In this document: piece by piece, positions 9,762 through 41,818 of the stretch
How the letters are laid out: every line of letters begins with the position of its first letter
Position numbering within the stretch: position 1 is the first letter of the stretch
Source of the DNA: a virus
Virus record (IMG/VR): IMGVR_UViG_3300005470_000008
Location: 1 to 41,829 of that record
Length of the DNA: 41,829 bases
Strand: one strand, 5' to 3'
Made by a program: the position numbers and the translations under genes
The notes under the pieces: model-generated
Databases searched by the model: none
What the model was told of the DNA's origin: nothing
What the model saw: the letters and a program-made list of their open reading frames with translations, nothing else

Positions 9762-9764
9762 AAG

Positions 9765-22694: not shown

Positions 22695-23501
22695 ATGGCA
22701 GATATAGCACAAGATCAAGAGCATACAGATAATGAAGATATTGAACTAGATGATGAGTTAGAAAATGATGAAGATGAATTAGAAGATGATGAGTCAGAAG
22801 ATGATGAGTCAGAAGATGATGAGTCAGAAGATGATGAGCTGGAAAATGATGAAGATGAATCAGAAGATGATCAATCAGAAACTTTTATAAGTGTCAAAGA
22901 GTCTAGTGGTGGTAAGTATGATATTGAATCAAACTTAAAACAATTAGCTGCTATAGAGACAAAGATAGAGAGTAGTTCAAAAAAGATAGATACAAAAGAG
23001 TTCTATAAAAACTTAAAAGAGATATTACCAAAAGATATACTAGAGTTAAGATTTGAAGAGGATGATACGGAGTATTATATAGAGGTTGAAAAGGCTAAAG
23101 AGAAGTGGCTAGAGGAGCAAACAGCCCCATCAAAAGAGCTAGAAAATAAACTAAATGAAGCGAAACAAGATCTAGCAGTAGCTAAAGCTATAGATAGTGT
23201 CCTTAAAAAATACCCTGATTACAACCATGTAAAAATGGCTAACTTTTTCAATGAAGAGTTAAGCAAAACTCAACAAAGAAAGCTAAGTAAAGGTAGCATA
23301 GAGGAAAACCTAGATGAGCATCTTGAAAAGGTATATAAACTATACAAGAAAAAGCACCCTACAAAAGTGGTAGATGTAAAAGCCCCTAAAAAACCAAACT
23401 TATCAAACAAACCAAAACAGACAATAGATGCTCACGAAGATATCAAAGCTCAAAAAGAGGATAAAGAGTATATGGAATCTATTGGATTTAGAAAATTATA
23501 A
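22695..23501 (+). CDS. Acidic scaffold-like protein
   Basis: A 268-residue protein. The first 65 residues are almost all Asp, Glu and Ser in repeats (DESED, from a repeated 15-bp unit near 22790-22840). A long helical region (70-215) and a basic C-terminus follow. The last residues, EYMESIGFRKL, match the end of the next protein (EYLENIGFKKA). An acidic, helical protein in the packaging/capsid block with a conserved C-terminal tag fits an assembly scaffold that binds the capsid through its C-terminus. This is inferred; no named family is recognised. Confidence 0.55.
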   Translation: MADIAQDQEHTDNEDIELDDELENDEDELEDDESEDDESEDDESEDDELENDEDESEDDQSETFISVKESSGGKYDIESNLKQLAAIETKIESSSKKIDTKEFYKNLKEILPKDILELRFEEDDTEYYIEVEKAKEKWLEEQTAPSKELENKLNEAKQDLAVAKAIDSVLKKYPDYNHVKMANFFNEELSKTQQRKLSKGSIEENLDEHLEKVYKLYKKKHPTKVVDVKAPKKPNLSNKPKQTIDAHEDIKAQKEDKEYMESIGFRKL

Positions 23502-23512
23502 AGGATAAAAAA

Positions 23513-23740
23513 ATGGCTAAAAGAAGAATAATTAAAAATGTTGATGCACCTATGGATGAAGATAGAAAGTGGAGATGTGAGAGTGATCTTAGAACTTTAA
23601 AAGATGTTTATGAGATATTAAATGATAAGCAAAGAATGGCAGATGTAAAAAAAGAGATAGCGAATCAAAAAACAGTTTTAGATGCAGTTGAAAAGATAGA
23701 TACAGAGTATCTTGAAAATATTGGATTTAAAAAAGCATAA
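23513..23740 (+). CDS. Small conserved-type phage protein upstream of terminase
   Basis: A 75-residue basic protein. The centre (WRCESDLRTLKDVYEILNDKQRM) resembles, from memory, small proteins of the W-x(3)-DxRTL-x(5)-I-x(2)-D type found near packaging genes in podophages. Its C-terminus (EYLENIGFKKA) repeats that of the preceding acidic protein. Its TAA stop overlaps the first bases of an 18-bp palindrome. The function is unknown. Confidence 0.6.
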   Translation: MAKRRIIKNVDAPMDEDRKWRCESDLRTLKDVYEILNDKQRMADVKKEIANQKTVLDAVEKIDTEYLENIGFKKA

Positions 23741-23756
23741 TTTCTCATGAGAAATT
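23739..23756. promoter_or_regulatory. 18-bp palindrome AATTTCTCATGAGAAATT, copy 1
   Basis: A perfect 18-bp palindrome that fills the gap between the stop of the small gene and the terminase start at 23759. Identical copies occur at 35972 and 41542, and a 14-bp core copy at 31309. It is a candidate ParB or repressor site. With a CATG loop it could also form a weak 7-bp hairpin. Confidence 0.7.
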
Positions 23757-23758
23757 AG

Positions 23759-25291
23759 ATGAATCCACAAGAGCTTCAAACACTTCTTTTAGAGAGGGAA
23801 CTAGCTAAAAGAAGTCATCTTGCATATACTAGATATATGTTCAAGCACTACTATAAACAACCCTTTATAGAGAACTGGCATCATGGATATATAAGTGAAG
23901 CTATCCATGAAATAGAAAAAGGGAATATAACTAGACTTATATTAAATATCCCACCATCTTATGGGAAAACAGAATTAACTGTTAAGATGGGGAGTAGTTG
24001 GATACTTGGGAATACCCCATCAAAAAAGTTTATACACACATCTTACTCATCTGAACTATCTATAAAAAACTCATCTCAAACAAGAGACCTAGTAGATAAT
24101 GAGATATATAAAACTTTGTTCCCTAGTGTATCTATATCAAAATCTCAAGATCAAAAACACTACTGGGAGACTACAAGTAGGGGTGGTATGTTTGCTACTG
24201 GTACGGGTGGTGCTGTAACTGGGTTTCATAGTCATGGTATATGGATAGATGACCCTACTAAGGCTATTGAAGCAAATAGCATATCAGCCTTAAATGAATC
24301 AGTTGATTATCTTGAGGGTTCACTTTATTCAAGGCTTCAAGATAAAAAAAATGGATTTATCGTACTTATTATGCAAAGACTAAACCCAAAAGATTTAGCT
24401 GGTGTACTACTAGAGCAAGGGGGTTGGGAGCATATCAACTTAAAAGCACTTGAGTCAAGACCTAAGATATATGAGATGGGAAATTTTAAGTATGAAAGAG
24501 AACCAAACGAACCTTTATGGGAAGAGTATGAAGATTATGAGCTTTTAAAACAACAAGAGAAAAATATGGGTGTAAAGTTTGCTAGTCAATATCAGCAAGA
24601 CCCAGAAGTGCTTATAGGTGACTTTTATACAGATGATGATTTTACAGAGATTTCAGATTTTGATATACCAAAAGATGAATACAAGTATATAGTAATAGAT
24701 CCAGCTATGAGTACAAAAAACACAGCAGACAATAGGGCTATAGTAACTGTAGGAAAATCTATAGATGAAAGAAAGTTAGAGTTAGTTGTAGTACATGATG
24801 TGTTTTATGGCACTTGGGTATTAAGTGAGTTTGTAGATAGGATAATAGAGACTATGGTTACATATCCTGATGCAACTGTTTTTTTAGAGCTAAGTGGTGG
24901 TGGTATTTTAGTAAATCAAGAGTTATCAAAAGAGATCATAAGGAGAAATGTAGAACTTAAAGAGAAAAGCAAACCTACAATAAAAAACAAGATAGTAACT
25001 TATGCACCAAAAAGAACTGTAAAGAAAAACGAAAAGCTACAAGCTATGCAGCCATACTTCAATGCACACCAAATAAAGTTTAGAAGAAACGGACATGGGA
25101 TAGAGCAACTTAAAAAAGAGTTAAGAAGTTTTGATCCAAATAAAGATAGTCCAAAAGATGACTGTATGGAGTGTCTAGCAGAGTCAATAACAAATGAGAA
25201 AATGAGTGGCAAAAAACCACCAAAAGAGAAACAATCTATATCACAAAGAGCAAAACTAAGACAAAATAATAGTAAATTATGGAGAATCTAA
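23759..25291 (+). CDS. terL: Terminase large subunit
   Basis: The 510-residue packaging motor that cuts and pumps DNA into the prohead. The N-terminal ATPase has a Walker A-type loop PPSYGKTE (65-72) and Walker B GIWIDDP (160-166). The RNase-H-like nuclease begins at YIVIDPAMS (Asp314) and continues with VFLELSGGG and a C-terminal acidic residue near DCMECLAESIT. The ribosome site is displaced by the palindrome, and GAGAAATTAG just before ATG is weak. The small subunit candidate is about 10 kb downstream, an unusual separation. Confidence 0.92.
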   Translation: MNPQELQTLLLERELAKRSHLAYTRYMFKHYYKQPFIENWHHGYISEAIHEIEKGNITRLILNIPPSYGKTELTVKMGSSWILGNTPSKKFIHTSYSSELSIKNSSQTRDLVDNEIYKTLFPSVSISKSQDQKHYWETTSRGGMFATGTGGAVTGFHSHGIWIDDPTKAIEANSISALNESVDYLEGSLYSRLQDKKNGFIVLIMQRLNPKDLAGVLLEQGGWEHINLKALESRPKIYEMGNFKYEREPNEPLWEEYEDYELLKQQEKNMGVKFASQYQQDPEVLIGDFYTDDDFTEISDFDIPKDEYKYIVIDPAMSTKNTADNRAIVTVGKSIDERKLELVVVHDVFYGTWVLSEFVDRIIETMVTYPDATVFLELSGGGILVNQELSKEIIRRNVELKEKSKPTIKNKIVTYAPKRTVKKNEKLQAMQPYFNAHQIKFRRNGHGIEQLKKELRSFDPNKDSPKDDCMECLAESITNEKMSGKKPPKEKQSISQRAKLRQNNSKLWRI

Positions 25292-25320
25292 CCATAAACT
25301 ATATATCAAGTTTTTTTTTA

Positions 25321-25342
25321 AACTAAGCTATTAACTAAGCTA
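25321..25342 (+). repeat. Direct repeat AACTAAGCTA in the capsid leader
   Basis: Two copies of AACTAAGCTA, 12 bp apart, lie in the 82-bp gap between terminase and capsid, after a run of nine T (25311-25319). The gap probably holds a terminator-like T-run and a leader or promoter for the capsid gene, but no consensus boxes are clear. Confidence 0.35.
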
Positions 25343-25373
25343 AAAAAATAGCAAATAGATTTAAGGATTTGAC

Positions 25374-26486
25374 ATGGCAGATTGGTTTACGTTAAGTGAT
25401 AGTAAAGTTGTTCATAAACTCCAAAAAGAGATTACAACAGCAGTTATCAATGAAAGTAGATTTGCTCAATTTATTGGGCTTGGTAATAATGCGATCATTA
25501 AGACTCAAAAGGAAGATGGATTAAGTGCAACAGCAACTATGAAGTTTAGAGGTTTGATTAGAAATGGTGGTGTTAGTGGTGATGAGGATTTTGATACAAA
25601 TGAGGGTAGTTTAACTTACTTAGCTCAAACAATATCATTAGAATCATCTGGAAATAGTGTAAAAAGTGGTAAAACTGTTAAGATTTTATCTCAAGTACAC
25701 TTTGAAAACTTTAGAGATGATGGTAAAGAGGGATTAACAGAGTCAGAGACTGATAAAATGGATAGAAGAATCTACTCAAGAATGAGTGATAAATGTTCAA
25801 ATATCGTAGCTTGTAATCATCATACAGATTTGAATACTTCAAATATGGTAGCTGGTGATGTTTTAACTGTAGCAGATGTTGAAGAAGCTGCAAGAAGAGC
25901 AAGAGAGGGTGTAGATGCTGCTGGAAATAGCGTACCTAGACTAAGACCTTACAAAACAGTTATCTCAAAAGATGCACATGGTATAGAGGTAAAAAGAGAG
26001 ATCTTTGTTATGTATGTTGGTAGTAGAAGTTCATGGAACTTAAAACAAGACCCAGCATGGAGTAGCAAACAAGAAGCTGCATCTGATGTAGGGTTTAACT
26101 CACACATATTTAGCTCACAACTTGGTATTATTGATGATGTTGTTTTACTAAATCACTCAACAGTTTCAAGTGAATACGCTGGTATTTATACTTCAAAAGA
26201 TACTGGTATAGATGGTCAAGATTTTACTATTTACAATGGTGCTGGTGGACTTAAAACAGAGATCAATCTACTTGTAGGTGCAACAGCTATGTTGATGCCT
26301 ATGGATACTGGATACACATATCATGAAGATACTTATGATATGAAAAGAAAAGCAAAAATCGCAGTTGATAGACTTTATGGACTAGCTAAAACTAGATTTA
26401 AAGGTAAAGCTGGAACAGATGAAGTGAACTCAATATATCACGATAAAGATTATGGTGTTATAGCTGTAGTTGGTGCTTTACAGTAG
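25374..26486 (+). CDS. Major capsid protein, N4-gp56/DUF4043 type
   Basis: A 370-residue protein whose general pattern matches the N4 gp56-like capsid family. It has an N-terminal arm with a 'FIGLGNNAIIK' type segment, alternating strands in the E-loop region, LRPYKTVISKDAHGIEVKREIFVMYVG in the peripheral domain and ALLMPMD-like elements (ATAMLMPMDTGYTYHEDTYDM) towards the end. It has its own leader and is followed by a hairpin, suggesting high expression. The family call is from memory of the HK97-fold subgroup. Confidence 0.8.
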   Translation: MADWFTLSDSKVVHKLQKEITTAVINESRFAQFIGLGNNAIIKTQKEDGLSATATMKFRGLIRNGGVSGDEDFDTNEGSLTYLAQTISLESSGNSVKSGKTVKILSQVHFENFRDDGKEGLTESETDKMDRRIYSRMSDKCSNIVACNHHTDLNTSNMVAGDVLTVADVEEAARRAREGVDAAGNSVPRLRPYKTVISKDAHGIEVKREIFVMYVGSRSSWNLKQDPAWSSKQEAASDVGFNSHIFSSQLGIIDDVVLLNHSTVSSEYAGIYTSKDTGIDGQDFTIYNGAGGLKTEINLLVGATAMLMPMDTGYTYHEDTYDMKRKAKIAVDRLYGLAKTRFKGKAGTDEVNSIYHDKDYGVIAVVGALQ

Positions 26487-26498
26487 TGTAGAGTAGGG

Positions 26499-26517
26499 TA
26501 GTCACTTTTTGTGACTA
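26499..26517 (+). terminator. Stem-loop after the capsid gene
   Basis: TAGTCAC and GTGACTA form a 7-bp stem with a TTTTT loop, 12 bp after the capsid stop. No U-tract follows, so it may only reduce read-through and lower expression of downstream genes relative to the capsid. Confidence 0.5.
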
Positions 26518-26549
26518 TCTGTCTATATACTACTACAAGGATAAATATT

Positions 26550-26873
26550 ATGGCTAAAGTAAAACAAACAAAAGAGCAAGATATATTAACATTAGATGAT
26601 AGTGTTGTTACTGATACAAAAGAGCAAGATATATTAACACTAGATGATAGTGTTGCTACTGATACAAAAGAGATAAAAGAGAGTATCTATCTTCAATATA
26701 AAATCGCAGCTATTAGATATATAGGTGAAAAAGAAAGAGACTTTAAAGAGGGGCTAACAAGACCGTTCCCAAAGTTAAAAACTGGTGATATAGTGATCGT
26801 AGATATTAAAACAGCAAATTTTCTTACACGCTTAACTGGTGGGTTTGAGAAAATAGATCTAAACAATAGGTAA
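26550..26873 (+). CDS. Small head protein with duplicated N-terminal peptide
   Basis: A 107-residue protein starting at ATG 26550, which follows CAAGGATAAATATT. An upstream in-frame GTG at 26511 lies in the capsid hairpin and is unlikely. The N-terminus repeats TKEQDILTLDDSV twice at a 16-residue step. The C-terminus (IRYIGEKERDFKEGLTRPFPKLKTGDIVIVDIKTANFL) looks like the small proteins that follow capsid genes in many podophages. A head completion or decoration role is inferred. Confidence 0.6.
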   Translation: MAKVKQTKEQDILTLDDSVVTDTKEQDILTLDDSVATDTKEIKESIYLQYKIAAIRYIGEKERDFKEGLTRPFPKLKTGDIVIVDIKTANFLTRLTGGFEKIDLNNR

Positions 26874-26877
26874 GTAG

Positions 26878-27474
26878 ATGATCGCAAGAGACTTTATAGA
26901 GGAATCAAAGCTACTTTTACTTCAAAAAGGGGTAAATATAGATGCAAGTGATAGAGAGCTTTTTATATATCTACAAAGTGTATATATCACTTTACAAAAA
27001 GATGCACCTCAATTTAGTAAAAAAATAAGTTTTGATATAAAGCCACTTGTTCAAGAGTACAACGCTGGTTATGAGATAATAGATGGGATAAACCTATCTA
27101 TAGGTGGAGAGAAGTTTGTAAAAACAACTCAAGATATGTTTTATACACTAGATGATGAGAGTATGCAATATTACACTATATCTCACAACGATATCATCAT
27201 AAACACGATACCACAAAAAGAGTCTATTGCTACGTTTAGTTTTTACTATGCAAAAAGATTGGTAGATGTAGAGAGTGTTTTAGCTATACCTATTATCTTT
27301 GAGGAATCACTTAGATTACTTTTTTTAAGTAGATGTTGTGAAAAGATACCAACAAGGAATGATAGGAATCTATCTATCCACTACCTAAAAAGATACAACA
27401 CAGAGGTAGAGAGTGCAAAAAAAGTAAATAAAAAAAGATATAAAAATATAACAAGTACGCATCAAGCGTATTAA
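26878..27474 (+). CDS. Probable head-tail adaptor protein
   Basis: A 198-residue protein with an N-terminal helix pair, a central beta region (EYNAGYEIIDGINLSIGGEKF ... YYTISHNDIIINTIPQKESIATFSFYYAKR) and a C-terminal helix (FEESLRLLFLSRCCEKIPTRN). This is the layout of podovirus adaptor proteins that sit below the portal. It lies between capsid and portal. The start follows AATAGGTAAGTAG. Confidence 0.6.
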   Translation: MIARDFIEESKLLLLQKGVNIDASDRELFIYLQSVYITLQKDAPQFSKKISFDIKPLVQEYNAGYEIIDGINLSIGGEKFVKTTQDMFYTLDDESMQYYTISHNDIIINTIPQKESIATFSFYYAKRLVDVESVLAIPIIFEESLRLLFLSRCCEKIPTRNDRNLSIHYLKRYNTEVESAKKVNKKRYKNITSTHQAY

Positions 27475-27488
27475 AAAAGGATAATAAA

Positions 27489-27737
27489 ATGGCTGGAATA
27501 TTTGAAGGTAAGAATTTTGGTACTACCCTAAGTGGTTTAGGTAGCTTAGGTATGGCATATGCTAGTTATAAACAAGCAAAAGCAGCAGAGGACTATAACA
27601 ATAAGTTGTTAGAGTTAGAAAAGGAAAAATATCAAAGAGGTATACAAAGAGAGGATTTAGCACAATCAAGCTTAGATGATGCTATAAATAGTGTTTGGGG
27701 AGTTCCTAAAAAAGAGGAAGATATTTTAGGAGTATAG
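27489..27737 (+). CDS. Small virion or ejection-associated protein
   Basis: An 82-residue protein. Its N-terminus is hydrophobic and glycine-rich (GTTLSGLGSLGMAYASYKQAKAAEDYNNKL), a pattern seen in small internal proteins of podophages. It is followed 1 nt later by the portal gene. AAAAAGGATAATAAA is its ribosome site. No named family. Confidence 0.55.
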   Translation: MAGIFEGKNFGTTLSGLGSLGMAYASYKQAKAAEDYNNKLLELEKEKYQRGIQREDLAQSSLDDAINSVWGVPKKEEDILGV

Positions 27738-27738
27738 A

Positions 27739-29595
27739 GTGTTTGAAAATACAACTACACTAAAAAACTGGTTTGATGAATCTTTTGAGTTGCTTCAAGA
27801 AAGTAGACTAAACGCTCAAAAAACGGCTGATTATGCAAGTGGTGAGCAGCTTGGAAATGAGATAAAATTAACTTTGTCACAAAGAGGGCAACCAGAACAA
27901 TGGGAAAATAATATCTCAACTTATGACAATAAAATAGGTGCATTTAAAGCTAGTAGACAAACAGAGATTAAACTTTTTGGTAGACAAACAGAGGATAAAA
28001 CAAAAGCTATATTACTTCAAGATACTATAAGAGCTATAGAGGAGAGTGGGGATTTTCAAACAGAAAAAGAGTCTAGTGATGAAGATCTAAGATATGCTGG
28101 GTTTGCTGTTCAAGAGATAAGTGTAGTTCAAAGTGATGAAGAGGATCAATTTGGTAGAACTCTAAAAGATATCAAAGTTGAAAATATACCAGCAAACCAA
28201 TCTTTTTTAGATCCTTTTGCTAAAAAGATAGATTATAGTGATGCTAGATACTTCCATAGAGCATTTTGGAGTGATAAAGAGTCTTTATACTTAGAGTTTG
28301 ATGAAGATTTAGTAGACTCACTTCCTGTATCTGTAAATATATACGATACAGAACTTGATGAAGATGTTTATGATCAAAGCCAAAGAGAGCGTGTACTTGT
28401 GATCTATACTTGGTATAAAAAATATGATAAAAAAACAAACTCTATGAAGATATACTATGCTTACTGGGGTGGAGATGTTATTTTAAAGCAAGAGGAGAAC
28501 CCTTATAAAGAGTTTTTTGATGACTTCCCTATAGTGGTTACTTTTTTAAATAGTAGAAAATACAACACACAATATGCTGGTATGTATAAAGATGTACTAC
28601 CACTACAAGATGCACTAAATTTTGCTAAATTAAAAATATGGCACAAACTTGGAAATGTAAAAGTTTTAGTTGAAGAGGATGCCGTAGATGATATCATGGT
28701 GTTCAAAGAGGACTATAGCTTAGATGATAGTATCACAGAGGTTAGAAAAATAGGTGGTATCAAAGAGATAAATCAACACGTAGATATATCTCAACTTTTA
28801 AGTATAGTGGTTGATTGTAGAAACAAAATAAAAGATATCATGGGGTTAAGTGATGAGTTTTTAGCAGCAGCAACAAACAGAATGGGAGCAGATGCACTAA
28901 ATCAAAGAATATCTATGGGTACGCTAGGGCTTGGAAACTTTTTAAATGCAAGTCGTAGACTTCAAGAAAACACACTAAAAAAGATGATACCACTTATCCA
29001 AAAATACTACAATGCAAATAGAGTTTTAAAGATAGTTGATGAAGAGATGGGGATGAGATACTTTGAGATAAACAAACCAAAAGTTGATCAAAATGGTTTT
29101 TATGAGTATGAGCTAGATGATCAAGGTAATGTTATACCTACTATGGAAAACACTCTAAATGTAGGTAAATGGGATCTAATCTACACAGAGATGGAGAAAC
29201 CACTAACATCAAGTACAGAAAGATATAGACAAGATGTAGAGCTTATGAAACTTTTAGGGCAAGTATCACCACAATATGTACCACTACTTTTACCAGAACT
29301 TTTAGCAGATAGCCACTCAACTGTTGCAGAGAAGATAAGATATATTATAGAGACACAAAAAACTAAAGATGATCAAAACCCAATGGAGCAGTTTAATCAA
29401 GATTATGAGATACAAAAGAAACAGCTAGAGTTAGCTGATCTAAATAGTAAAATAGAGTTAAATCAAGCAAGATCAATATATACAGCAGATAAGAACAATG
29501 TAGAGTTAGAGAGGATAAGGCAAAGAGAAAAAGATGGTATAAGAAACCATAACACTAAAAGCGACCAGCTAATACTAAATGCTATGAGAGGATAG
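27739..29595 (+). CDS. Portal protein, P22-type
   Basis: A 618-residue dodecameric portal through which DNA enters and leaves the head. It starts at GTG 27739 after TTTTAGGAGTATAGA. The N-terminus (SRLNAQKTADYASGEQ), the LSQRGQPEQWENNI region, the NIPANQSFLDPFAKKIDYSDARYFHRAFW segment split around 145-175 and the C-terminal helical barrel region (about 530-615) follow the P22-portal family order. The C-terminal barrel helices are rich in Gln and Glu. It lies downstream of the capsid, whereas most phages place portal before capsid. Confidence 0.82.
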   Translation: MFENTTTLKNWFDESFELLQESRLNAQKTADYASGEQLGNEIKLTLSQRGQPEQWENNISTYDNKIGAFKASRQTEIKLFGRQTEDKTKAILLQDTIRAIEESGDFQTEKESSDEDLRYAGFAVQEISVVQSDEEDQFGRTLKDIKVENIPANQSFLDPFAKKIDYSDARYFHRAFWSDKESLYLEFDEDLVDSLPVSVNIYDTELDEDVYDQSQRERVLVIYTWYKKYDKKTNSMKIYYAYWGGDVILKQEENPYKEFFDDFPIVVTFLNSRKYNTQYAGMYKDVLPLQDALNFAKLKIWHKLGNVKVLVEEDAVDDIMVFKEDYSLDDSITEVRKIGGIKEINQHVDISQLLSIVVDCRNKIKDIMGLSDEFLAAATNRMGADALNQRISMGTLGLGNFLNASRRLQENTLKKMIPLIQKYYNANRVLKIVDEEMGMRYFEINKPKVDQNGFYEYELDDQGNVIPTMENTLNVGKWDLIYTEMEKPLTSSTERYRQDVELMKLLGQVSPQYVPLLLPELLADSHSTVAEKIRYIIETQKTKDDQNPMEQFNQDYEIQKKQLELADLNSKIELNQARSIYTADKNNVELERIRQREKDGIRNHNTKSDQLILNAMRG

Positions 29596-29599
29596 GATA

Positions 29600-31240
29600 A
29601 TGGGATTTTATGATAAAGATATAAACTACAGCAAATATAGAAGGGTAGCAGATCCAAATAGAAGTGGCTTAAATGCTTTAGGTAGAGCTTTCAAAGCGTT
29701 TGGTGATACATATAATGAGTGGGGTGAAAATGATGACAATGAAGCTTTAGCAAACCTACAAACAAATAAAACAACCACACTAGATGGTGTAGATATGTTC
29801 AATGGTGAAAACACACTAAAAGCAAATCAAATAGTGGAATTAAATAAACAAAAAGCAGATCAAGAGCTACTAGGTAAAGTTATGGCTGGTAGTATACCTC
29901 AATCAGATTTTACAGCAACACCAGATACACAAGTACCTTATGCAAACGAAAATGAAGTAGGCTACACAATAGAGCAAAAACCAAAATATCAAGTGTTTAA
30001 CGCAGATACACAAGCTAGTATAAACAACTACTATGATAAAGAAAAATCAAAACAAAACATAGCAAATATCCAATCAATGATGGCACAAGGTTTACCATCT
30101 AAAGATATAGTAAACTCTTTTAAAGATGAAAATGGAAAATCTACACTTGATGCAGACTCTTTTAAAATACTGTTTGATTATAAAACAAATGAAGATAAAA
30201 TAGCTTGGGAGAAGAATAAACTAATAGAAGAGAAGAAATATAAAGAGGAGTTAGAGAGACAAAAACATGGTTACAAAATGAGTCAACTTAGACAAGATGG
30301 ATCAATAAAATCACAAGTTATAGATAAAGAATATGAATATAAAGAAAATATAGAAAAGATAAAAAAAGATAGTAAGAATGATTTAGAGAAACAAAAACAC
30401 AAATATAAGTTAAAAGAAATAGATCAAGAATATGGATATAAAGAAAATATAGAAAAGATAAAAAAAGATAGTAAGAATGATAATAGTTTTGATAGTAAAA
30501 TAACTACTGCAACAATAAACAGTATAATAAAACAAAACAACAAAGATAAAACTTTAAAGCTAATAGATACACAAGAAAAATATAAAAATGGAAAGATATC
30601 AAAAGATGAGCATGATAATACTATAACCCAGTTATCAAAAGAACCACTATCAGATAAACAACTTGAAAGATTAAAAGCATACAATACTCAACTTACTAGA
30701 TTAAAAGCCCTAAAAAAACATCTACCAAAAGGTAAAACCATAACTGGAAACAATGAGTTTGTAGGGAGTTTTGATACTGCAATAAATAATATAACACCTA
30801 CATGGTTTAACGCAGATAGAGCAAAATGGAACTCACTAGAAAAAGAGTTGTTACTTTTAAAAACAGACCAGATGGCTGGTACTTTAACAGAGAGAGATAT
30901 GCAGATATTAAACTCAAGTGGATTAACAACAGAACTTAGCTACAAAGATTATACTGAAAAACTAAACTCTATGATAAGTGATATAGAGCAAGAGCAAAAA
31001 GATATCATAACTGATTATGATAAAAAATATGATCTTCCTGATTATTTTAAACCAAAAAAAGAAAATACTATACAAAAGAAAATAAATAGAAAAAGTATAA
31101 TAAAACCAACAGCTATAAAAAATAGCAATATCCAACTTAACAATAGTGTTGAAAATAATAGTAGTGTTATAACCATAAAGAATCAACAAACGGGTGAGCA
31201 AAAACAATATGATACAAAAACAAAACAATTTATCAACTAA
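29600..31240 (+). CDS. Internal/ejection virion protein with helical repeats
   Basis: A 546-residue protein starting after GAGAGGATAGGATA. The N-terminal 60 residues are charged. The centre is a long charged coil with an exact 45-nt repeat (30338-30382 and 30437-30481) encoding YKENIEKIKKDSKND twice. The C-terminus is basic. The layout and place after the portal fit the ejected proteins of podophages that build a channel across the envelope. It overlaps the next gene by 32 nt. Confidence 0.6.
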   Translation: MGFYDKDINYSKYRRVADPNRSGLNALGRAFKAFGDTYNEWGENDDNEALANLQTNKTTTLDGVDMFNGENTLKANQIVELNKQKADQELLGKVMAGSIPQSDFTATPDTQVPYANENEVGYTIEQKPKYQVFNADTQASINNYYDKEKSKQNIANIQSMMAQGLPSKDIVNSFKDENGKSTLDADSFKILFDYKTNEDKIAWEKNKLIEEKKYKEELERQKHGYKMSQLRQDGSIKSQVIDKEYEYKENIEKIKKDSKNDLEKQKHKYKLKEIDQEYGYKENIEKIKKDSKNDNSFDSKITTATINSIIKQNNKDKTLKLIDTQEKYKNGKISKDEHDNTITQLSKEPLSDKQLERLKAYNTQLTRLKALKKHLPKGKTITGNNEFVGSFDTAINNITPTWFNADRAKWNSLEKELLLLKTDQMAGTLTERDMQILNSSGLTTELSYKDYTEKLNSMISDIEQEQKDIITDYDKKYDLPDYFKPKKENTIQKKINRKSIIKPTAIKNSNIQLNNSVENNSSVITIKNQQTGEQKQYDTKTKQFIN

Positions 31241-35186: not shown

Positions 35187-35214
35187 AACCCGATATATTC
35201 AAATATCTCCCGAG

Positions 35215-35325
35215 ATGTTATCTTCACACTGGTATCTCAGCCCTACTGTCTCAAAGCACACCAGTCAAGACTGCTTAAATGCAGAAACAACTGATTTTAA
35301 TATAAAATGTATTAAAGGTAAATAA
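35215..35325 (+). CDS. Possible 36-residue ORF in a structured leader
   Basis: ATG 35215 opens a frame (MLSSHWYLSPTVSKHTSQDC ... IKGK) ending 1 nt before the terminase small subunit start. It has no clear ribosome site. The 35187-35270 DNA is visibly richer in C and G than its surroundings and can form several stems (GATAT/ATATC, TCTC/GAGA, ACTGGT/ACCAGT, CTGC/GCAG), so this may instead be an RNA element or leader. Confidence 0.3.
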   Translation: MLSSHWYLSPTVSKHTSQDCLNAETTDFNIKCIKGK

Positions 35326-35326
35326 A

Positions 35327-35959
35327 ATGGCTAAATACTCACAAGAGCTAAAATCAAGAGCAAGAGACTATTATGAGATACATTCTAAAAAACTTGAGGA
35401 TATATCATCTATTCTAAATATCCCTACTACTACCCTTAGTGATTGGAAACGTAAAGATGGTTGGATCAAGGGTGCATTAAAAGATAAGGTTGATAGTGCA
35501 AAAGAGAAGTTAAGGGAAGAGATAGAGAACAATACAGTATTTAAAGCTGTAAAAGATGAACTTCTAGCAGAGATGAAAGCTCAAAATAGCTCTATGGTGG
35601 CTACAACAGTAGAGCAAGATGTGATACTTGACAATAGGGCTTATAGTATACTGCTTGAAGCTGCATCTATAGAGAACTTTGATGCTATGGCTATGGAAGG
35701 TGTTATGTTAGCAAATAAGAAGTTAAAATATATGAACAGCCTACCACTTGAAAGAGTAAGTATGAGTGAGATCAAAACATACAATGATATAGTAGCAAAT
35801 ACAAAAACACAAGTGTATGGTAAAGCACCAGATACAGTAATACAACTAAATCAAAAAAATATGAGTGTTGAGGACTATAGTAAGCTATCAACTCAAGAGT
35901 TGTATGCTATGCTTGATAAGCAAAATAAACAATCACAAGATACATCTACTTTGATGTAG
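35327..35959 (+). CDS. terS: Terminase small subunit (DUF1804-like)
   Basis: A 210-residue protein. Residues 1-50 form a helix-turn-helix (KKLEDISSILNIPTTTLSDW followed by KRKDGW), as in DUF1804-type small terminases that recognise the packaging site. A helical oligomerisation region (90-170) and a polar tail that would contact the large subunit follow. It is separated from terL by the whole head block. A transcription factor with a similar DNA-binding domain is the alternative. Confidence 0.65.
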   Translation: MAKYSQELKSRARDYYEIHSKKLEDISSILNIPTTTLSDWKRKDGWIKGALKDKVDSAKEKLREEIENNTVFKAVKDELLAEMKAQNSSMVATTVEQDVILDNRAYSILLEAASIENFDAMAMEGVMLANKKLKYMNSLPLERVSMSEIKTYNDIVANTKTQVYGKAPDTVIQLNQKNMSVEDYSKLSTQELYAMLDKQNKQSQDTSTLM

Positions 35960-35971
35960 ATATATCTTGAT

Positions 35972-35989
35972 AATTTCTCATGAGAAATT
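35972..35989. promoter_or_regulatory. 18-bp palindrome AATTTCTCATGAGAAATT, copy 3
   Basis: A full 18-bp copy exactly between the stops of the convergent + strand small terminase and the - strand operon. Here it could also serve as a bidirectional terminator, because short T-runs lie on both sides. Confidence 0.7.
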
Positions 35990-36421
35990 TTATAACTCTA
36001 GTTTAAACTTATCATTTATATATTTGTTTACATCTTCAATAGATATATCACTATTATCTATCACCATATTTAAAACTTCTGATAGCACTTGAGGTACTGT
36101 ATCATCATCTAGGTTATATTTATCTACTAAAAGCATCTTTATAGTGTTTGTCATAAGTATTTTGTTTCTATTTGTATACTCATCTAAAGTTATTGCTGTT
36201 TCGTTTGCTTTATCCATATCTTCAATAGACTCAATATTTTCACTTGCTAAAGCAACCGATATCATATCAGATAACTTTATGAACTTACATAAAGAGATCA
36301 TCTTTACTGTTATATCTTGGTTTTCAAAAAATAAAAATGCACTATATGATAGATCTTGTATCATCTCATATTCATTTTTTTCATTACTTGCTTGTTCTAT
36401 TGCTATTCTATTATCAATCAT
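35990..36421 (-). CDS. Hypothetical acidic helical protein
   Basis: A 143-residue, strongly acidic, mostly helical protein at the end of the replication operon. It contains NENIE/DISIEDVNKYINDKFKLEL type helices and no Cys motif. TAAGGAAAAATT is its ribosome site. The function is unknown. Confidence 0.6.
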   Translation of the reverse strand: MIDNRIAIEQASNEKNEYEMIQDLSYSAFLFFENQDITVKMISLCKFIKLSDMISVALASENIESIEDMDKANETAITLDEYTNRNKILMTNTIKMLLVDKYNLDDDTVPQVLSEVLNMVIDNSDISIEDVNKYINDKFKLEL

Positions 36422-36457
36422 AATTTTTCCTTATATTTTATTATATTATTAGTGGTT

Positions 36458-36958
36458 CTATCTTAAAAATAAGATACACCAATCAGCGAAGATATACATA
36501 TCTTGTACATCTTCAAAGTCTCTAAACTGTTTCCAATCTGTTACTGTATATGTGAACCCAGCATCAAATTTTCTTTGTAACTCTTTTGGGATATGGATGT
36601 AGTATTGTCTACCAATCCTTTTGTATTCAAAAAGTTTTTTACCAGTTTTTTCCATAAATCTTATACGTTCTCTAACTGTATGAGGTGATAGATTCAGTAC
36701 ATTTCGTGAAAAATATACAAGTGGCAAATAATCATCAAGATTAAAACACAATGCTGCTGCATCTTTCTCTTTTTGAGTTGTTAAGTTTATCTTTGGGATA
36801 TATCCCGTACTATCAAATACAAAATAGTTATCTTTGTATCTTCTACCAAATCTATCTGGTGCATATCCACTTTTTCTACTTATTTCACTTGCTAATACGC
36901 AACCTCTTAAAACCATATCCACTTTATCATTCCTCCAAACTCTTAATATATTTACCAT
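36458..36958 (-). CDS. Possible DNA-binding protein of the replication operon
   Basis: A 166-residue protein. The centre (LVYFSRNVLNLSPHTVRERI followed by RFMEKTGKKLFEYKRIGRQYYIHIPKEL) resembles a MerR/excisionase-type winged helix: helix-turn-helix followed by a strand with basic residues. The N-terminus has CVLASEISRKSG. Its role may be in replication or gene control. No named family. Confidence 0.55.
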   Translation of the reverse strand: MVNILRVWRNDKVDMVLRGCVLASEISRKSGYAPDRFGRRYKDNYFVFDSTGYIPKINLTTQKEKDAAALCFNLDDYLPLVYFSRNVLNLSPHTVRERIRFMEKTGKKLFEYKRIGRQYYIHIPKELQRKFDAGFTYTVTDWKQFRDFEDVQDMYIFADWCILFLR

Positions 36959-36985
36959 CTTTTTATCCTACAAACTCTTTATAAG

Positions 36986-37519
36986 CTACATATAAAGTGA
37001 AGCTTCACTAGCCAGTTCCTCTTGGCTCATTTGTGATGGTGAGCTATCACTATAGTCACCTTGATACTCAACTGGTGGCACATATCCACCCATACTATTA
37101 CCTTGTGATGATACTCCACCTTTTGGTGGTTGGTAGATCACATCATATAGCCAGTTTATATCTTCGGCTTTCTCGTTTGGTAGTGGTTTTGCTTTAAATA
37201 CAGTTACATACATCTTACCACCATGCACTAGTGGGTTTTCTATATTTCCACTAAAATACTCCGTATTCCCATCTTTTGATTTTTTTCTCCATAAGCCACC
37301 AACTTTTGTACCTCTAAACTTTTCACCTTTTCTTGAAAAGTTGTACCATAGGTTATAATCAGGTTCATTTTGATTTTTTTTATTGTTGTTTGGGTGAACG
37401 CTAAATGTTGAACTTTGCATCATAGGTGGTCTTAATATCATCTCTAACCACTCTTGTTTTGTTTCAACTCCATCTTTTTGTACCAATCTACTGTTTTGTA
37501 CTATTACACCGATATTCAT
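36986..37519 (-). CDS. SSB-like / DUF736-like single-strand binding protein
   Basis: A 177-residue protein. Residues 55-125 (NLWYNFSRKGEKFRGTKVGG, then LWRKKSKDGNTEYFSGNIENP and KMYVTVFKAKPLP) follow the strand order of DUF736-type OB-fold proteins. The C-terminal 40 residues are Gly/Pro/Ser-rich and acidic (DYSDSSPSQMSQEELASEA), as in SSB tails that recruit partners. It lies directly downstream of the helicase, which supports coating of single-stranded DNA at the fork. The assignment is by pattern. Confidence 0.55.
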   Translation of the reverse strand: MNIGVIVQNSRLVQKDGVETKQEWLEMILRPPMMQSSTFSVHPNNNKKNQNEPDYNLWYNFSRKGEKFRGTKVGGLWRKKSKDGNTEYFSGNIENPLVHGGKMYVTVFKAKPLPNEKAEDINWLYDVIYQPPKGGVSSQGNSMGGYVPPVEYQGDYSDSSPSQMSQEELASEASLYM

Positions 37520-37546
37520 AATTTTTTCCTTTATTTTAAATTTAAT

Positions 37547-38875
37547 TTATTGATAGTCATATGGCATATCCACATCTATCATAGTTTGTTCATTTTCCCA
37601 ATCTGGATCATCTTCATATTGTGTTACAACTGGCTGTATGCTATTACCCCCTTTATTTATATTTGGATTGTCTGTATCATGCTCATGTATTATCTTAAAT
37701 GAGTGTGTATCTGGATCAAATCTAACATCTACTTTTCTCCTTTTAAAATTTTGTTTATTTTTTGCTAGTAGTATAGTCCTAGTCTCACTATCTTTGTGTT
37801 TTAAAAAGTGAAACCACACACCACACTCATGGTCTGCATCTATACACCCTTTTACACTTACCTCTTCAGCATCGTGGTCTGATTTTGATGTTTGTACTAC
37901 CATAGCTATGATAAGATCGTGTTTTTGACAAAGTAATCCTATCCTTGAGAATACATTTGCTAGTAGTTCTGCTTTTGTTGCATTTTTAAACCCAGCGTTT
38001 GAAACTCTTAGTTGAGAATCTATGAATATAAACTCAACACCTTTTTTTACCATCTTTTTTATCTGTCTTTCAAGATCATTTATATCTGTTGTTTCATGAT
38101 CTATATAAACATTTTGAGATATCGCTACTCTTCTTTTATTGTCTTTATGTGGGTATTTTTCGTGTAGTTTTTTGATATATTGTCTAGCTCCAAACTCTAA
38201 AGAGAAAAAGCCACACTTCACCCCATCTGCTGCCATATTTTCCATGATAGTTGTAGCAAAGTATGTTTTACCAGTCTCTTTTTTACCACTTATAAAGACA
38301 AACTGTCCTTGTTCTATACCACCATCTAGTGCTGTTGCTGCATCTGCTACCATAAGTCCTGTTGGTATCTTTTTTAAAGGTGGTAGGTTTTCGTAATACA
38401 CTTCCATATCGTGTACTGTATTTAATGATTTTCCACCAGTATCGTGATCAAGGTTGTCTATCTTTTTTGCTAAATCCTCTAGCATAATGATAGAGTCTTT
38501 ACCATCTTGGTGTTGTATTTTTAGTTCATTTGCATAAGATACTAAGGTTCTACGCCTATAGTTTTCTATGATCTCTTTTGCATAATGTTCTACATTTGAT
38601 GCACCATTTGCACTTAATACCTCAATAATTGAGCTTTCATTTGCTATAGATTTATCTACATTTTTTAGTACAAAATCCTCATCTACGGGATGATCTTTTT
38701 TGTATAACTCTATCATCACTCTATATATTTCAGCATATGCCCGTAGGTAAAACATATCTGCTTTTAGTATTGGCTCTATAGTCTCTAAAACTTCTGAATC
38801 AAACAGTATCGTTGCTAATACTGCTTTCTCTATGTTTGCTTGATATTGGTTTGAATTTACTGTGTTATTAGTCAT
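37547..38875 (-). CDS. dnaB: Replicative DNA helicase, DnaB-like
   Basis: A 442-residue hexameric helicase. A DnaB N-terminal domain (10-140; IEKAVLATILFDSEVLETI ... KADMFYLRAYAEIYRVM) is followed by a RecA-type motor with Walker A GKKETGKTYFA (197-207), SLEFGARQ (225-232; the usual helicase box is SLEM) and Walker B FIFIDSQ (282-288). It would be loaded at the origin by the initiator encoded upstream. Good ribosome site AAAGGAGATAAAA. Confidence 0.88.
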   Translation of the reverse strand: MTNNTVNSNQYQANIEKAVLATILFDSEVLETIEPILKADMFYLRAYAEIYRVMIELYKKDHPVDEDFVLKNVDKSIANESSIIEVLSANGASNVEHYAKEIIENYRRRTLVSYANELKIQHQDGKDSIIMLEDLAKKIDNLDHDTGGKSLNTVHDMEVYYENLPPLKKIPTGLMVADAATALDGGIEQGQFVFISGKKETGKTYFATTIMENMAADGVKCGFFSLEFGARQYIKKLHEKYPHKDNKRRVAISQNVYIDHETTDINDLERQIKKMVKKGVEFIFIDSQLRVSNAGFKNATKAELLANVFSRIGLLCQKHDLIIAMVVQTSKSDHDAEEVSVKGCIDADHECGVWFHFLKHKDSETRTILLAKNKQNFKRRKVDVRFDPDTHSFKIIHEHDTDNPNINKGGNSIQPVVTQYEDDPDWENEQTMIDVDMPYDYQ

Positions 38876-38972
38876 TTTTATCTCCTTTGTTTTGTTTTAA
38901 AAATATAATCGTAAATACGATAGTTAAGTAGCTAATACAAGCTGCTATCACTACTAAACTTATATCACCCAT
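38868..38972 (-). CDS. 34-residue membrane microprotein overlapping the helicase start
   Basis: The frame from ATG at 38972 encodes MGDISLVVIAACISYLTIVF followed by TIIFLKQNKGDKND: one membrane helix with a basic tail. It overlaps the upstream gene by 8 nt and the helicase start by 8 nt, so its translation is linked to the replication genes. The stretch AAAGGAG inside its end is the helicase ribosome site. It may anchor replication to the membrane or be a leader. No family is recognised. Confidence 0.45.
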   Translation of the reverse strand: MGDISLVVIAACISYLTIVFTIIFLKQNKGDKND

Positions 38973-39201
38973 TTGATATCTCTAATCTATCAAAATATTG
39001 TTTTGCTGTTTTTTGATCTTCAAAAAATTTTACTGTTTGTTTTGGGAACTCATACCCTACAAGTTTTTTTGAGTATCTAAAAACTACAAAATTTGAAGTT
39101 ACCATATCAACGGCAAGTATATGTGTAGGTGAACTTTCAAGAAGTCCAAACCCCATACCTATAGCAAAATCATACAACTCTTGCTTTTGATCTAAAGTCA
39201 T
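38965..39201 (-). CDS. Hypothetical small protein of the replication operon
   Basis: A 78-residue protein that overlaps the previous gene by ATGA and the following membrane peptide by 8 nt. Likely helix-strand-strand-helix (FAIGMGFGLLESSPTHILAVD ... VKFFEDQKTAKQYFDRL). No family is assigned. Confidence 0.6.
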   Translation of the reverse strand: MTLDQKQELYDFAIGMGFGLLESSPTHILAVDMVTSNFVVFRYSKKLVGYEFPKQTVKFFEDQKTAKQYFDRLEISNG

Positions 39202-39533
39202 GCTATCTTTACCCCCATATTTTTTAAAACACTAGATGCTATATCTGATTGTGTTTGTTGTCTTTTTGGTTTAAAACCATTTGCTTTTAGTTCCCTTATG
39301 GCTCTTGGGATAAACACCATACGATCTTCACCATCTATGTAAAAATGTGTATCTTGGATAAACACCCCACTTGCTAGATACTTTTGCATAGTAGGTTGAG
39401 ATATGTTAAGATACTTTCTAACAGCAGCTCTAGTTGTCAAGTCACCCTCTATGATCTCTTTTAACTCTTGGTTCTCTTCTCTTAGTTTGTTTAACTCTTT
39501 GATTATAAAATCTAACTTTTGTTCTAAATACAT
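39198..39533 (-). CDS. Small helix-turn-helix protein
   Basis: A 111-residue protein with an N-terminal coiled coil (LDFIIKELNKLREENQELKE) and a helix-turn-helix (TTRAAVRKYLNISQPTMQKYL, about 33-53, shown split) followed by FYIDGEDRMVFIPRAI. This is the layout of small phage DNA-binding proteins of the excisionase or HTH_17 type. It may control the operon or the integrase. Confidence 0.65.
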   Translation of the reverse strand: MYLEQKLDFIIKELNKLREENQELKEIIEGDLTTRAAVRKYLNISQPTMQKYLASGVFIQDTHFYIDGEDRMVFIPRAIRELKANGFKPKRQQTQSDIASSVLKNMGVKIA

Positions 39534-39542
39534 ATTTTACCC

Positions 39543-40577
39543 CTATAGTCCGTAAAGATGTTCCATCATAATTTGAGCTTTTAGATCAAGTGATCTACTA
39601 TGATGCCTACTTCCAATATCAGCACCACCCATCATCACAAATACCTCATACTCTTGATCTGTAAACAGATGCTTAAAATCTTCTGTTGCCGCCCCATTTG
39701 CTTCAAGTACCTCTTGGATTGAGCATTGAAGTTTCATAAACTGTTGATGCTGCTCTTTAGAAAAACCATCTCTTACTTGCTGGTCGTATGATGATAGTTT
39801 TTGAACAGCCGCCCCATTTGCTTGGCTAGTGGTATCTTGTGGGTTGTTAAGCAATACACACTTTTGTGGTAAGTTGTTGATATCTAGGTATTGAGCATAT
39901 TTAGTTAAGAAGTTTTTTGGCTTCATTGGTGAATATGCAAAATGGTTGGTGCATTTGTAGTTTTTAAGTGCTGCAAAGATATCTTGAGCATTTTGGTTGT
40001 AGTGATCAAAGTTTTCTTTTAGCTTTAGTCTGAACTCTTTGTAATCACTAGCTTGAGTATGTTCTGTTTTTCTAGGATAATTACCCTCAAATTCAAAAAC
40101 AAAATCATCAAAAGAAAAAGTACCCTCACTCCCACTATCTTTAGAGGTATTTCTTTTCTTTTTATTTATATATAGAGTCTCTTTTTCTAATGTATCTGAT
40201 GAGATACTTGTAGGTATCTGATGAGATACTTCTGATGTATCTGATGAGATACTTGATGATGTATCTGATGAGATACTTGTAGGTATCTGATGAGATACAT
40301 TAGATGACTCATTTTCTATAATAACAGTAATAAAAGATGATCTATTTTTTTTGATAATTCTACCCTCTTGAACTAATTTTTTTATTGTATTTGTATAAAC
40401 TAATTTATGTATCTTACAATTTTCAATAAACTCATCTCTTGAGATGTTTGCACTAAGCTCTTGATATTGGATCGTTTTTGAGAAAATATAGGTCAATACT
40501 CTTAGTTCATTTGGTTTATTGATATATTCATTTATCCATTTTGGGTACATAATATAATTGTATTTTGGTAGTGCCAT
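39543..40577 (-). CDS. Replication initiator with internal origin
   Basis: A 344-residue protein with an N-terminal winged-helix domain (1-110; NELRVLTYIFSKTIQYQEL ... FIENCKIHKLVYTNTIKKLV). A low-complexity linker repeating SISSDT (93-130) lies exactly where the five DNA iterons are, and a C-terminal domain follows (145-344). This is the plan of lambda O-type initiators, whose origin repeats lie inside the gene. Downstream are a helicase and an SSB-like protein. No ribosome site precedes ATG 40577. Instead a short upstream frame ends with TAATG on this start, which suggests coupling. Confidence 0.75.
   Translation of the reverse strand: MALPKYNYIMYPKWINEYINKPNELRVLTYIFSKTIQYQELSANISRDEFIENCKIHKLVYTNTIKKLVQEGRIIKKNRSSFITVIIENESSNVSHQIPTSISSDTSSSISSDTSEVSHQIPTSISSDTLEKETLYINKKKRNTSKDSGSEGTFSFDDFVFEFEGNYPRKTEHTQASDYKEFRLKLKENFDHYNQNAQDIFAALKNYKCTNHFAYSPMKPKNFLTKYAQYLDINNLPQKCVLLNNPQDTTSQANGAAVQKLSSYDQQVRDGFSKEQHQQFMKLQCSIQEVLEANGAATEDFKHLFTDQEYEVFVMMGGADIGSRHHSRSLDLKAQIMMEHLYGL
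40192..40298. repeat. Five 16-bp iterons, candidate replication origin
   Basis: Five exact copies of GTATCTGATGAGATAC start at 40192, 40214, 40237, 40261 and 40283, spaced 22-24 bp, or about two helical turns. Each has 6-bp inverted arms (GTATCT/AGATAC). An AT-rich stretch (40150-40190) lies on one side as a melting region. They lie in the initiator gene, as in lambda ori. Confidence 0.88.
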
Positions 40578-40708
40578 TATATTTTTACCATTTTGTATTT
40601 TGAAAAAAAAGTTATTGTAAAGTTGGTCATATTCTTCCCTTTTTTTGTTTTCAATATTAAGCCCACGAAAAGCCCATGAGTAGGAAAGCCGACCAAAGCA
40701 AAACTCAT
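40577..40708 (-). CDS. Possible 43-residue leader ORF upstream of the initiator
   Basis: ATG at 40708 opens a frame (MSFALVGFPTHGLFVGLILK and so on) that ends in TAATG, sharing one base with the initiator start. No ribosome site is visible, and the frame runs through the inverted repeat at 40653-40720. It would be a leader controlling initiator synthesis if translated. Confidence 0.3.
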   Translation of the reverse strand: MSFALVGFPTHGLFVGLILKTKKGKNMTNFTITFFSKYKMVKI

Positions 40709-40720
40709 GGACTTAATATT
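40653..40720 (-). ncRNA. Structured leader of the replication operon
   Basis: Outer arms AATATTAAG/CTTAATATT and inner arms CCATGAGT/ACTCATGG can pair around a loop in the roughly 200-nt leader of the - strand transcript, with a 12-nt bulge on one side. The G/C-rich core stands out from its surroundings. It may be a copy-control RNA structure, an attenuator or a protein-binding site. Confidence 0.4.
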
Positions 40721-40733
40721 AAAAACTGTTTGT

Positions 40734-40762
40734 TTGACATAGTAAAATACATTTGATATACT
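40734..40762 (+). promoter_or_regulatory. Rightward promoter for the repressor
   Basis: TTGACA (40734-40739), a 17-bp spacer and TATACT (40757-40762), close to the sigma-70 consensus, point to the repressor gene. A second pair, TTGTTA (40762) and TATTAT (40785) with 17 bp between, is a weaker alternative. Confidence 0.7.
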
Positions 40763-40785
40763 TGTTATATATTAAATGTAAGCGT

Positions 40786-40814
40786 ATTATAGTTTAAAAA
40801 AATGAACTTGTCAA
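40786..40814 (-). promoter_or_regulatory. Leftward promoter for the replication operon
   Basis: On the - strand TTGACA (40814-40809), a 17-bp spacer and TATAAT (40791-40786) form an exact consensus promoter. Its start point would lie near 40779, about 200 nt before the initiator, and it faces the rightward promoter. Confidence 0.8.
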
Positions 40815-40873
40815 TTTTAAGTTGAATTTTTTAAACAAATTTGTAAATTTAAAAATAGCAAAAAGGATAAAAT

Positions 40874-41536
40874 ATGAACCAAACAAGTGGAGAAAGGCTG
40901 AAAATTGCACTAAAAGAGCTAAAATTAGCATATAAAGATTTAGATGAGTTGGTAGGTATACCAGAACAAAAAGTAAAAAACTTAGCTACTGGAATAAAAA
41001 TAATGAGTGCAGATATAGCTATATCCCTTGAGGAAAAACTTGGTATAAGTAGTGCTTGGCTTTTATTAAACAAAGGTCAGATGTTTGATAAACAAGCTAC
41101 TGCCTTACAAAAAGCATATGGTGATGATGATATCTCAAGACTTACAGTTCCATACTATACTGATATAAAAGCAAGTGCTGGGCATGGATATATAGCAGAT
41201 GAAGATAGTGAAGTTGATATAATAAATCTACCTAAAGATCTAGTTGGTAAACACTACAATCTTGGGAGAATTGAAGCTATTAAAGTGCATGGGGATAGTA
41301 TGACTCCAACTATAAAAGAGAATGATGTGGTATTTATCTGTAAAAAAGTAAATGATATAGTAGACAATAAAATATATATAATAAACTGGAATGGTGAAAT
41401 ATATATAAAAAGGATATTTAAAAGAAAAGATACATATATCATAAAATCAGATAATCCAATCTACCCACAAGATGAAGTAAAAAAAGATGAGATCACTATA
41501 GTAGGTAGACTCATATACAATATGACAGAACTATAA
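40874..41536 (+). CDS. CI/LexA-like S24 repressor
   Basis: A 220-residue repressor. The N-terminal helix-turn-helix (about 5-65; GERLKIALKELKLAYKDLDE ... AISLEEKLGISSAWLL) is followed by a linker with the likely self-cleavage site Ala102-Gly103 (KASAGHG). The S24 peptidase domain has the catalytic Ser142 (HGDSMTPTI) and Lys179 (YIKRIF). RecA-stimulated self-cleavage after DNA damage would lift repression of the face-to-face leftward promoter. Its ribosome site is AAAAAGGATAAAAT. A dispersed palindrome lies 6 bp after its stop. Confidence 0.9.
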   Translation: MNQTSGERLKIALKELKLAYKDLDELVGIPEQKVKNLATGIKIMSADIAISLEEKLGISSAWLLLNKGQMFDKQATALQKAYGDDDISRLTVPYYTDIKASAGHGYIADEDSEVDIINLPKDLVGKHYNLGRIEAIKVHGDSMTPTIKENDVVFICKKVNDIVDNKIYIINWNGEIYIKRIFKRKDTYIIKSDNPIYPQDEVKKDEITIVGRLIYNMTEL

Positions 41537-41541
41537 AATAC

Positions 41542-41559
41542 AATTTCTCATGAGAAATT
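41542..41559. promoter_or_regulatory. 18-bp palindrome AATTTCTCATGAGAAATT, copy 4
   Basis: A full 18-bp copy, 6 bp after the repressor stop and before the next promoter. Three of four copies lie within 15 bp after a stop codon. Confidence 0.7.
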
Positions 41560-41568
41560 ATCAGTTTC

Positions 41569-41602
41569 AAGCCACCCCCCACTTGCTTTAAAAAAGTGGC
41601 TT
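41569..41602 (+). terminator. Imperfect hairpin after the repressor, with candidate att core
   Basis: AAGCCAC and GTGGCTT arms (7 bp) flank 20 bases. The right arm is part of TTAAAAAAGTGGCT, identical to 21385-21398. A terminator for the repressor is possible, but there is no U-tract. Confidence 0.35.
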
Positions 41603-41607
41603 TAAAC

Positions 41608-41636: not shown

Positions 41637-41665
41637 TTGGAACTTTAAAAAGGGATATGACCACT

Positions 41666-41812: not shown

Positions 41813-41818
41813 TACGAT

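Follow-up and report, generated by a model that had tools for sequence, protein, structure and literature searches.

The SopB sites of phage N15 are dispersed. In the IncC plasmid R55 the core TTTCACATGTGAAA recurs at 14 scattered sites, which have been reported as parS bound by the plasmid's ParB (PMC10954446). The IncC ParB bound three probes in electrophoretic mobility-shift assays, namely two 22-bp sites and the 31-bp DR2 of SGI1, and a 4-bp insertion at the centre of the site abolished binding (PMC10954446). Here we describe a comparable set of sites in the IMG/VR virus record IMGVR_UViG_3300005470_000008, the whole of which (41,829 bases) we refer to as the window. This element encodes its own ParA and ParB and carries four copies of a CATG-centred palindrome, which are very probably the parS sites of that ParB. 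We strongly infer, short of proof, that they form a dispersed, centre-expanded parS set, and the element to which it belongs is probably a phage-plasmid. The set itself is new, and its expanded CATG centre is of the kind already reported for IncC. We favour this reading because the same word recurs, with one symmetric change, in a related phage that likewise encodes ParAB, because CATG-centred palindromes sit in or beside parAB of many related plasmids and contigs, because the site class goes with a residue in the recognition helix of ParB, and because the IncC sites are reported as ParB-bound. The comparisons thereby support the preferred reading of an earlier note on this DNA, in which the palindromes were taken as the parS set of the local ParB.

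The three perfect 18-bp copies at 23739, 35972 and 41542 and the 14-bp core at 31309 that the earlier note had reported were all located as described (Table 1), and a mismatch search of the full sequence, taken to three mismatches, returned these four and no other match. At that tolerance 0.11 matches are expected by chance, and the maximum in 100 shuffles was two. The same word accounts for three of the four perfect 18-bp palindromes in the window, three of the five of 16 bp and four of the nine of 14 bp; in 300 second-order Markov sequences of the window's length a 16- or 18-bp palindrome never exceeded one copy, and a 14-bp palindrome reached two copies in nine sequences and never more. Similarly, of the 46 CATG tetranucleotides in the window, the only ones whose 18-bp surroundings have at most two of nine pairs mismatched are the four at the centres of the copies. 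The claim that the repeat lies beyond chance is thus upheld by shuffles and simulations alike. The earlier note had also allowed that abundance in the host chromosome would count against it: the inner 16-mer occurs in none of the 397 genomes of the presumed host phylum, that of the Campylobacterales metagenome-assembled genome (MAG) G001, while a reversed control pattern occurs in 11. With shuffles, simulation and the host-phylum genomes all opposed, and nothing found in its favour, a repeat that arose by chance or came from the host can be given practically no weight. The full 18-mer had no match in viral_contigs, where the window's own record is possibly excluded, and the inner 16-mer occurs once in each of four viral contigs, which show no S24 match and, in the stretches examined, no ParB match at E 1e-8. 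The repetition of the palindrome is genuine and, within the scope of these searches, specific to this element, as the repeated palindromic sites of a ParABS system should be.

The placement of the copies "mostly just after stop codons" holds at the level of open reading frames (ORFs) for three of the four, the copy at 31307 being inside an ORF. Such a placement is what one would expect of transcription terminators or RNA hairpins, and there is a terminator-like hairpin adjoining copy 3 as well as a strong hairpin past copy 4 (41559-41613; stretch 41530-41615, z -4.16), the latter distinct from the palindrome and a possible S24 terminator. However, the palindromes have no stable G+C-rich stem followed by a T run, and the four 46-base stretches that hold them fold no better than shuffled sequence (z -1.01, 1.20, -0.27 and 0.41). 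None of 14 terminator-like sites in the window is a palindrome copy, one copy lies within a coding frame, and a terminator needs neither an identical sequence nor a concerted symmetric change. Hence, the terminator alternative raised in the earlier note is less well supported than parS, and we consider it very improbable.

The related phage, G003 (IMGVR_UViG_3300019754_000113), shares with the window its terminase (50% identity), S24 repressor (48%), ParB (42%), small recombinase (41%) and ParA (37%), in addition to capsid, portal and DnaB. It has five perfect 18-mers AATTTCGCATGCGAAATT (AATTTCG-CATG-CGAAATT) at 2694, 6179, 7187, 9358 and 9545, the first of which falls inside parA, and another CATG-centred 18-mer with two mismatched pairs. 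Relative to the window word, the seventh base has changed from T to G, symmetrically with its partner, in all five copies; this is the kind of conservation in related elements by which the earlier note had proposed to check its reading. Three of the window copies, at 23.7-36 kb, are interspersed with or border on the head genes, a region in which G003 has no copy. The sites thus seem to relocate, yet each genome keeps a single form of the word, as is expected of the binding sites of one protein.

That protein could also be the CI-like S24 repressor, with the palindromes acting as operators or stoperators scattered over the genome. Both phages encode homologous S24 repressors and have one copy directly after the S24 gene (in G003 the copy at 9545-9562 adjoins the end of the gene at 9563-10225, as copy 4 does in the window), and two phages alone are compatible with a change of the word in step with S24. 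Yet none of the four copies in the window or the five in G003 lies in the divergent region between the S24 and replication genes, which holds the repressor's own promoter and where an S24/CI operator set would be represented. Moreover, the same class of palindrome is found at parAB of plasmid stretches that list no S24 protein (the stretches being partial and the PLSDB gene tables incomplete), no palindrome reaches 16 bp in the 50,000 bases searched of pSULKU03, which does have an S24 protein, and the type of palindrome tracks the recognition helix of ParB, as described below. Stoperator-like repressor sites, the other alternative of the earlier note, are hence less well supported and appear improbable.

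The comparison with plasmids and contigs again points to parS. Around many relatives of the window's ParB in Campylobacterota plasmids and contigs, the long palindromes have CATG at the centre and fall within parAB or next to it. For instance, GTGTTTCACATGTGAAACAC or its core is found about 0.8-0.95 kb before the ParB match at five Sulfurimonas loci and at L011, and at L007 the annotation puts this palindrome upstream of parA. Seven Sulfuricurvum loci have two copies each of AGTTGTGCATGCACAACT or its core, inside and just past parB; a Hydrogenimonas plasmid has two copies of GTTTCGCATGCGAAAC within parB; AATTATGTTCATGAACATAATT adjoins parA on the S. paralvinellae plasmid; and other CATG-centred palindromes occur at L025 and L147. 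Across 23 loci, hand-picked from the 33 with K or R at position 178 of ParB (see below), CATG is the centre of 29 of the 37 palindromes of 16 bp or longer that lie up to 2 kb from parB. Beyond that distance it is the centre of four of 17, and these four belong to G003's own set. Among 22 loci, those lacking a CATG-centred palindrome are the Aliarcobacter plasmids L002 and L004, pSULKU03 (L006), L048, L018 and L008. In the 30 loci L141-L170, TTTC.CG.GAAA is absent throughout, and only L147 and L167, the latter a repeat of L005, have a CATG-centred palindrome of 14 bp or longer; L144 has one of 12 bp. We also observed TTTCCCGCGGGAAA, a Noc-like half-site with a 2-bp GC expansion, near L144 (3434) and L146 (568), both of whose ParBs have K178.

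The class of site goes with the recognition helix, where motif spacing relative to the contact residues G170, K171, S172, R173 and N178 (PMC7383237) gave the position numbers. The helix of the window's ParB reads SKTESYIAKTRNLLKL and has K where Caulobacter has N178. We tabulated the 146 ParB loci with a complete recognition helix, dropping seven rows with gaps in the helix and excluding eight loci, of which L001, L134, L141, L167 and L171 are duplicates and L131, L132 and L140 are pieces without ParB; the ParB of pR55 is outside these counts. Sites were sought over the full length of the window and within 2 kb of parB at all other loci, and were classed as CATG when they were perfect palindromes around that centre and 16 bp or longer, or as canonical when they matched TTTC.CG.GAAA or TTCCACGTGGAA. 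Loci with K or R at position 178 have the CATG palindrome in 19 of 33 cases (window included) and canonical parS in none, and the 83 loci with N178 show the reverse, with none and 20, respectively; among the 30 loci with other residues the corresponding numbers are one and zero. When repeats of the same helix and core are removed, there remain 11 CATG sites with K/R, 14 canonical sites with N and one CATG site with another residue. Site type therefore tracks ParB type among the relatives, which are themselves related and partly picked and include exceptions. Since the IncC ParB has T178, the CATG class would appear to be associated with the loss of N178 rather than with K itself, an association that falls short of proof.

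The base at position 1 of the half-site can be compared with residue 173 in the same way: R173 bonds with guanine 1, while Q173 variants prefer adenine 1 (PMC7383237). Adenine 1 is present in the window (E173) and G003 (A173), and guanine 1 in most Sulfurimonas loci, Sulfuricurvum, Hydrogenimonas and L147 (K173), with L025 (T173, guanine 1) and S. paralvinellae L005 (Q173, thymine 1) as misfits. We tentatively propose, with slightly less than even confidence, that the ParB/Noc family includes a branch whose members have lost the conserved Asn178 (to K or R, or T in IncC) and have half-sites set 2 bp wider around CATG, with diversification of the half-site bases, and whose phages scatter and move their sites while keeping the copies uniform within each genome. 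If this is true, half-site spacing would join the base-specific switches at positions 1 and 6 as a route to mutually compatible partition systems.

Several observations weigh against the parS reading. The bare 14-bp core was not bound by the IncC ParB (PMC10954446). The Fisher value for the helix association, 1.5e-11, overstates the support, because the loci are related and the class had been noticed in some of them before the count; 14 of the 33 K/R loci lack a CATG palindrome, and the T178 of IncC means that K/R is not required. The positions of the sites are mostly unshared, the copy after S24 being the only one of the window's four that is matched in G003, and L131, with an 80%-identical terminase, has no copy before the terminase, the homologous junction. 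The closest ParB found (60%), at L008 in MAG G001, lies on a contig that ends within parB, and the 14-mer is absent from that MAG, where only two places match the 18-mer at three mismatches, against six for the reversed control. Finally, no copy is near parAB in the window: positions 1-23738 have none, and a distance of about 4.1 kb to the nearest copy applies only to a circular record. G003 does have a site inside parA, and because the IncC sites are scattered we do not treat a site near parAB as defining for ParABS.

If the palindromes are parS, each monomer of a ParB dimer would set its helix-turn-helix on one half-site (ATTTCTC), the half-sites being of the parS/Noc kind but 2 bp wider apart around the CATG centre than in canonical chromosomal parS. 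Loaded ParB would then spread along the flanking DNA, with the several dispersed sites serving as several nucleation points, and ParA would use the ParB-DNA complex to move copies apart and into position, which would enable the phage to be maintained as a low-copy plasmid. From the sites that adjoin the terminase and repressor genes, ParB may in addition affect transcription. The location of copies next to these ORFs, and the presence of KorB among the structures matched by ParB, are compatible with a variant of the parS explanation in which the sites serve mainly for KorB-like silencing or regulation rather than partition. The parA gene directly upstream of parB is, however, the usual partition operon; the two roles are not exclusive, and a mainly regulatory function seems unlikely.

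The parS assignment turns a guess made from sequence alone into a testable centromere assignment, and connects the scattered parS design of IncC plasmids with a plasmid-like lineage of phages whose hosts are presumably Campylobacterota. It also suggests that a simple rule, relating residue 178 to half-site spacing, could serve to predict parS for ParBs that are yet to be characterised, and the window and G003 offer a natural pair for studying the joint change of a protein and all its dispersed sites.

Virion (terminase, capsid and portal), replication and partition genes are all present, as would be expected of a phage-plasmid, but so is an integrase gene. The ParA-type Walker ATPase gene adjoins parB, whose product has the ParB_N and helix-turn-helix domains, scores over the cut-off for PF02195, PF17762 and TIGR00180, and matches by sequence the solved structures of Spo0J, ParB, Noc and KorB. 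Integration is also possible, given the integrase gene; the smaller recombinase is possibly a dimer resolvase. The best 15 of 1322 terminase matches among annotated phages are Helicobacter phages or prophages at 34-38% identity, and from such relatives the host is likely to belong to Campylobacterota. Positions 20001-41829 had no megablast match in phages, and searches of viral_contigs with S24 and with a single ParB found no relative of either. Rfam searched on 22500-41829 gave a sole match, far below the gathering score and inside the initiator gene.

Other repeats were observed in passing. Large imperfect hairpins, possibly a replication origin or control element, though this is a guess, lie between the S24 and replication-initiator genes in the window (40647-40726) and in G003 (L139, 10345-10518), and in the latter region a hairpin-bearing stretch of 67 bases is present twice, 96% alike. 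Repeats of the ATGTATCTGATGAGATACTT type at 40190-40306, within the O-like initiator gene, may be origin iterons or merely encode a repetitive peptide. The ORF at 31194-35186 encodes a 1330-aa protein with a NIPDGWEI repeat at its start and a C-terminal PBECR2 nuclease-like domain, and the palindrome at 31309 starts in the second NIPDGWEI repeat. A 30/60-base repeat array at 11575-12054 falls within ORF 11146-12603, whose product we guess is perhaps fibre-like.

Table 1. Palindrome copies and selected genes of the window
Feature	Position	Strand	Remarks
Palindrome copy 1	23739-23756	none	AATTTCTCATGAGAAATT, perfect 18 bp; candidate parS; overlaps TAA of ORF 23513-23740; terminase ORF begins 2 bp past its end
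Palindrome copy 2	31307-31324	none	AATTTCTCATGAGAAAGA; 16 contiguous bases match; perfect 14-bp core 31309-31322; within ORF 31194-35186
Palindrome copy 3	35972-35989	none	AATTTCTCATGAGAAATT, perfect; candidate parS; between ends of convergent ORFs 35327-35959 (+) and 35990-36421 (-)
Palindrome copy 4	41542-41559	none	AATTTCTCATGAGAAATT, perfect; candidate parS; 5 bases past the S24 repressor stop
Small tyrosine recombinase, 198 aa	1947-2543	+	homologue in G003
ParA-type partition ATPase, 213 aa	3793-4434	+	CbiA and AAA_31 over cut-off; phrog_164 ParA-like
ParB, 261 aa	4449-5234	+	ParB_N and HTH_ParB; proposed binder of the palindromes
Tyrosine recombinase integrase, 374 aa	21463-22587		no match in G003
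Replication genes	37547-40577	-	DnaB-like helicase 37547-38875; O-like initiator 39543-40577 (weak match)
S24/CI-like repressor	40874-41536	+	rival binder

Among the matches listed and in the literature on phage-plasmid parS, Campylobacterota parS and palindromes, coverage of which was partial, we found no description of the present sites, and TTTCTCATGAGAAA itself does not occur in the literature searched. The closest parallel is IncC, which like the window has many scattered TTTC-N-CATG-N-GAAA sites, mostly intergenic with some inside genes (PMC10954446); in 40 kb of pR55 we found two exact TTTCACATGTGAAA cores, one of them just before parA. The two cores differ by one symmetric base, IncC having A, not T, next to the C of the centre, and in IncC the AAAC/GTTT flanks matter (PMC10954446). 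Furthermore, the IncC ParB is 27% identical to that of the window over 180 aligned positions, with T178, and IncC is a conjugative plasmid where the window is a phage. Phage N15 resembles the proposed system in being a low-copy plasmid phage with four SopB inverted repeats, IR1-IR4, one of which is CATG-centred in the printed oligonucleotides, but its half-sites are of the GTGCGACC type, its SopB is close to that of F, and its plasmid is linear (PMC7205306).

Chromosomal parS (Spo0J/ParB) and the Noc-binding sites (NBS) share with the window the half-site TTTC.C, variable at positions 1 and 6; the window's half-site differs from canonical parS at exactly these two positions, where the Noc site differs too (PMC7383237). 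In canonical parS, TGTTTCACGTGAAACA, the half-sites abut at a central CG, whereas those of the window are set 2 bp wider by the CATG centre, and residue 178 is K instead of N. The Bsr parS of Burkholderiales secondary replicons are family-specific 16-bp palindromes that resemble chromosomal parS, but the dinucleotide CG stands at their centre in place of CATG (PMC5450999). Mycobacterial extrachromosomal prophages such as RedRock belong to temperate phages that, as proposed for the window, are maintained in plasmid form by parABS, and they have more than one parS locus, although these loci consist of directly repeated 8-bp motifs (PMC7157519).

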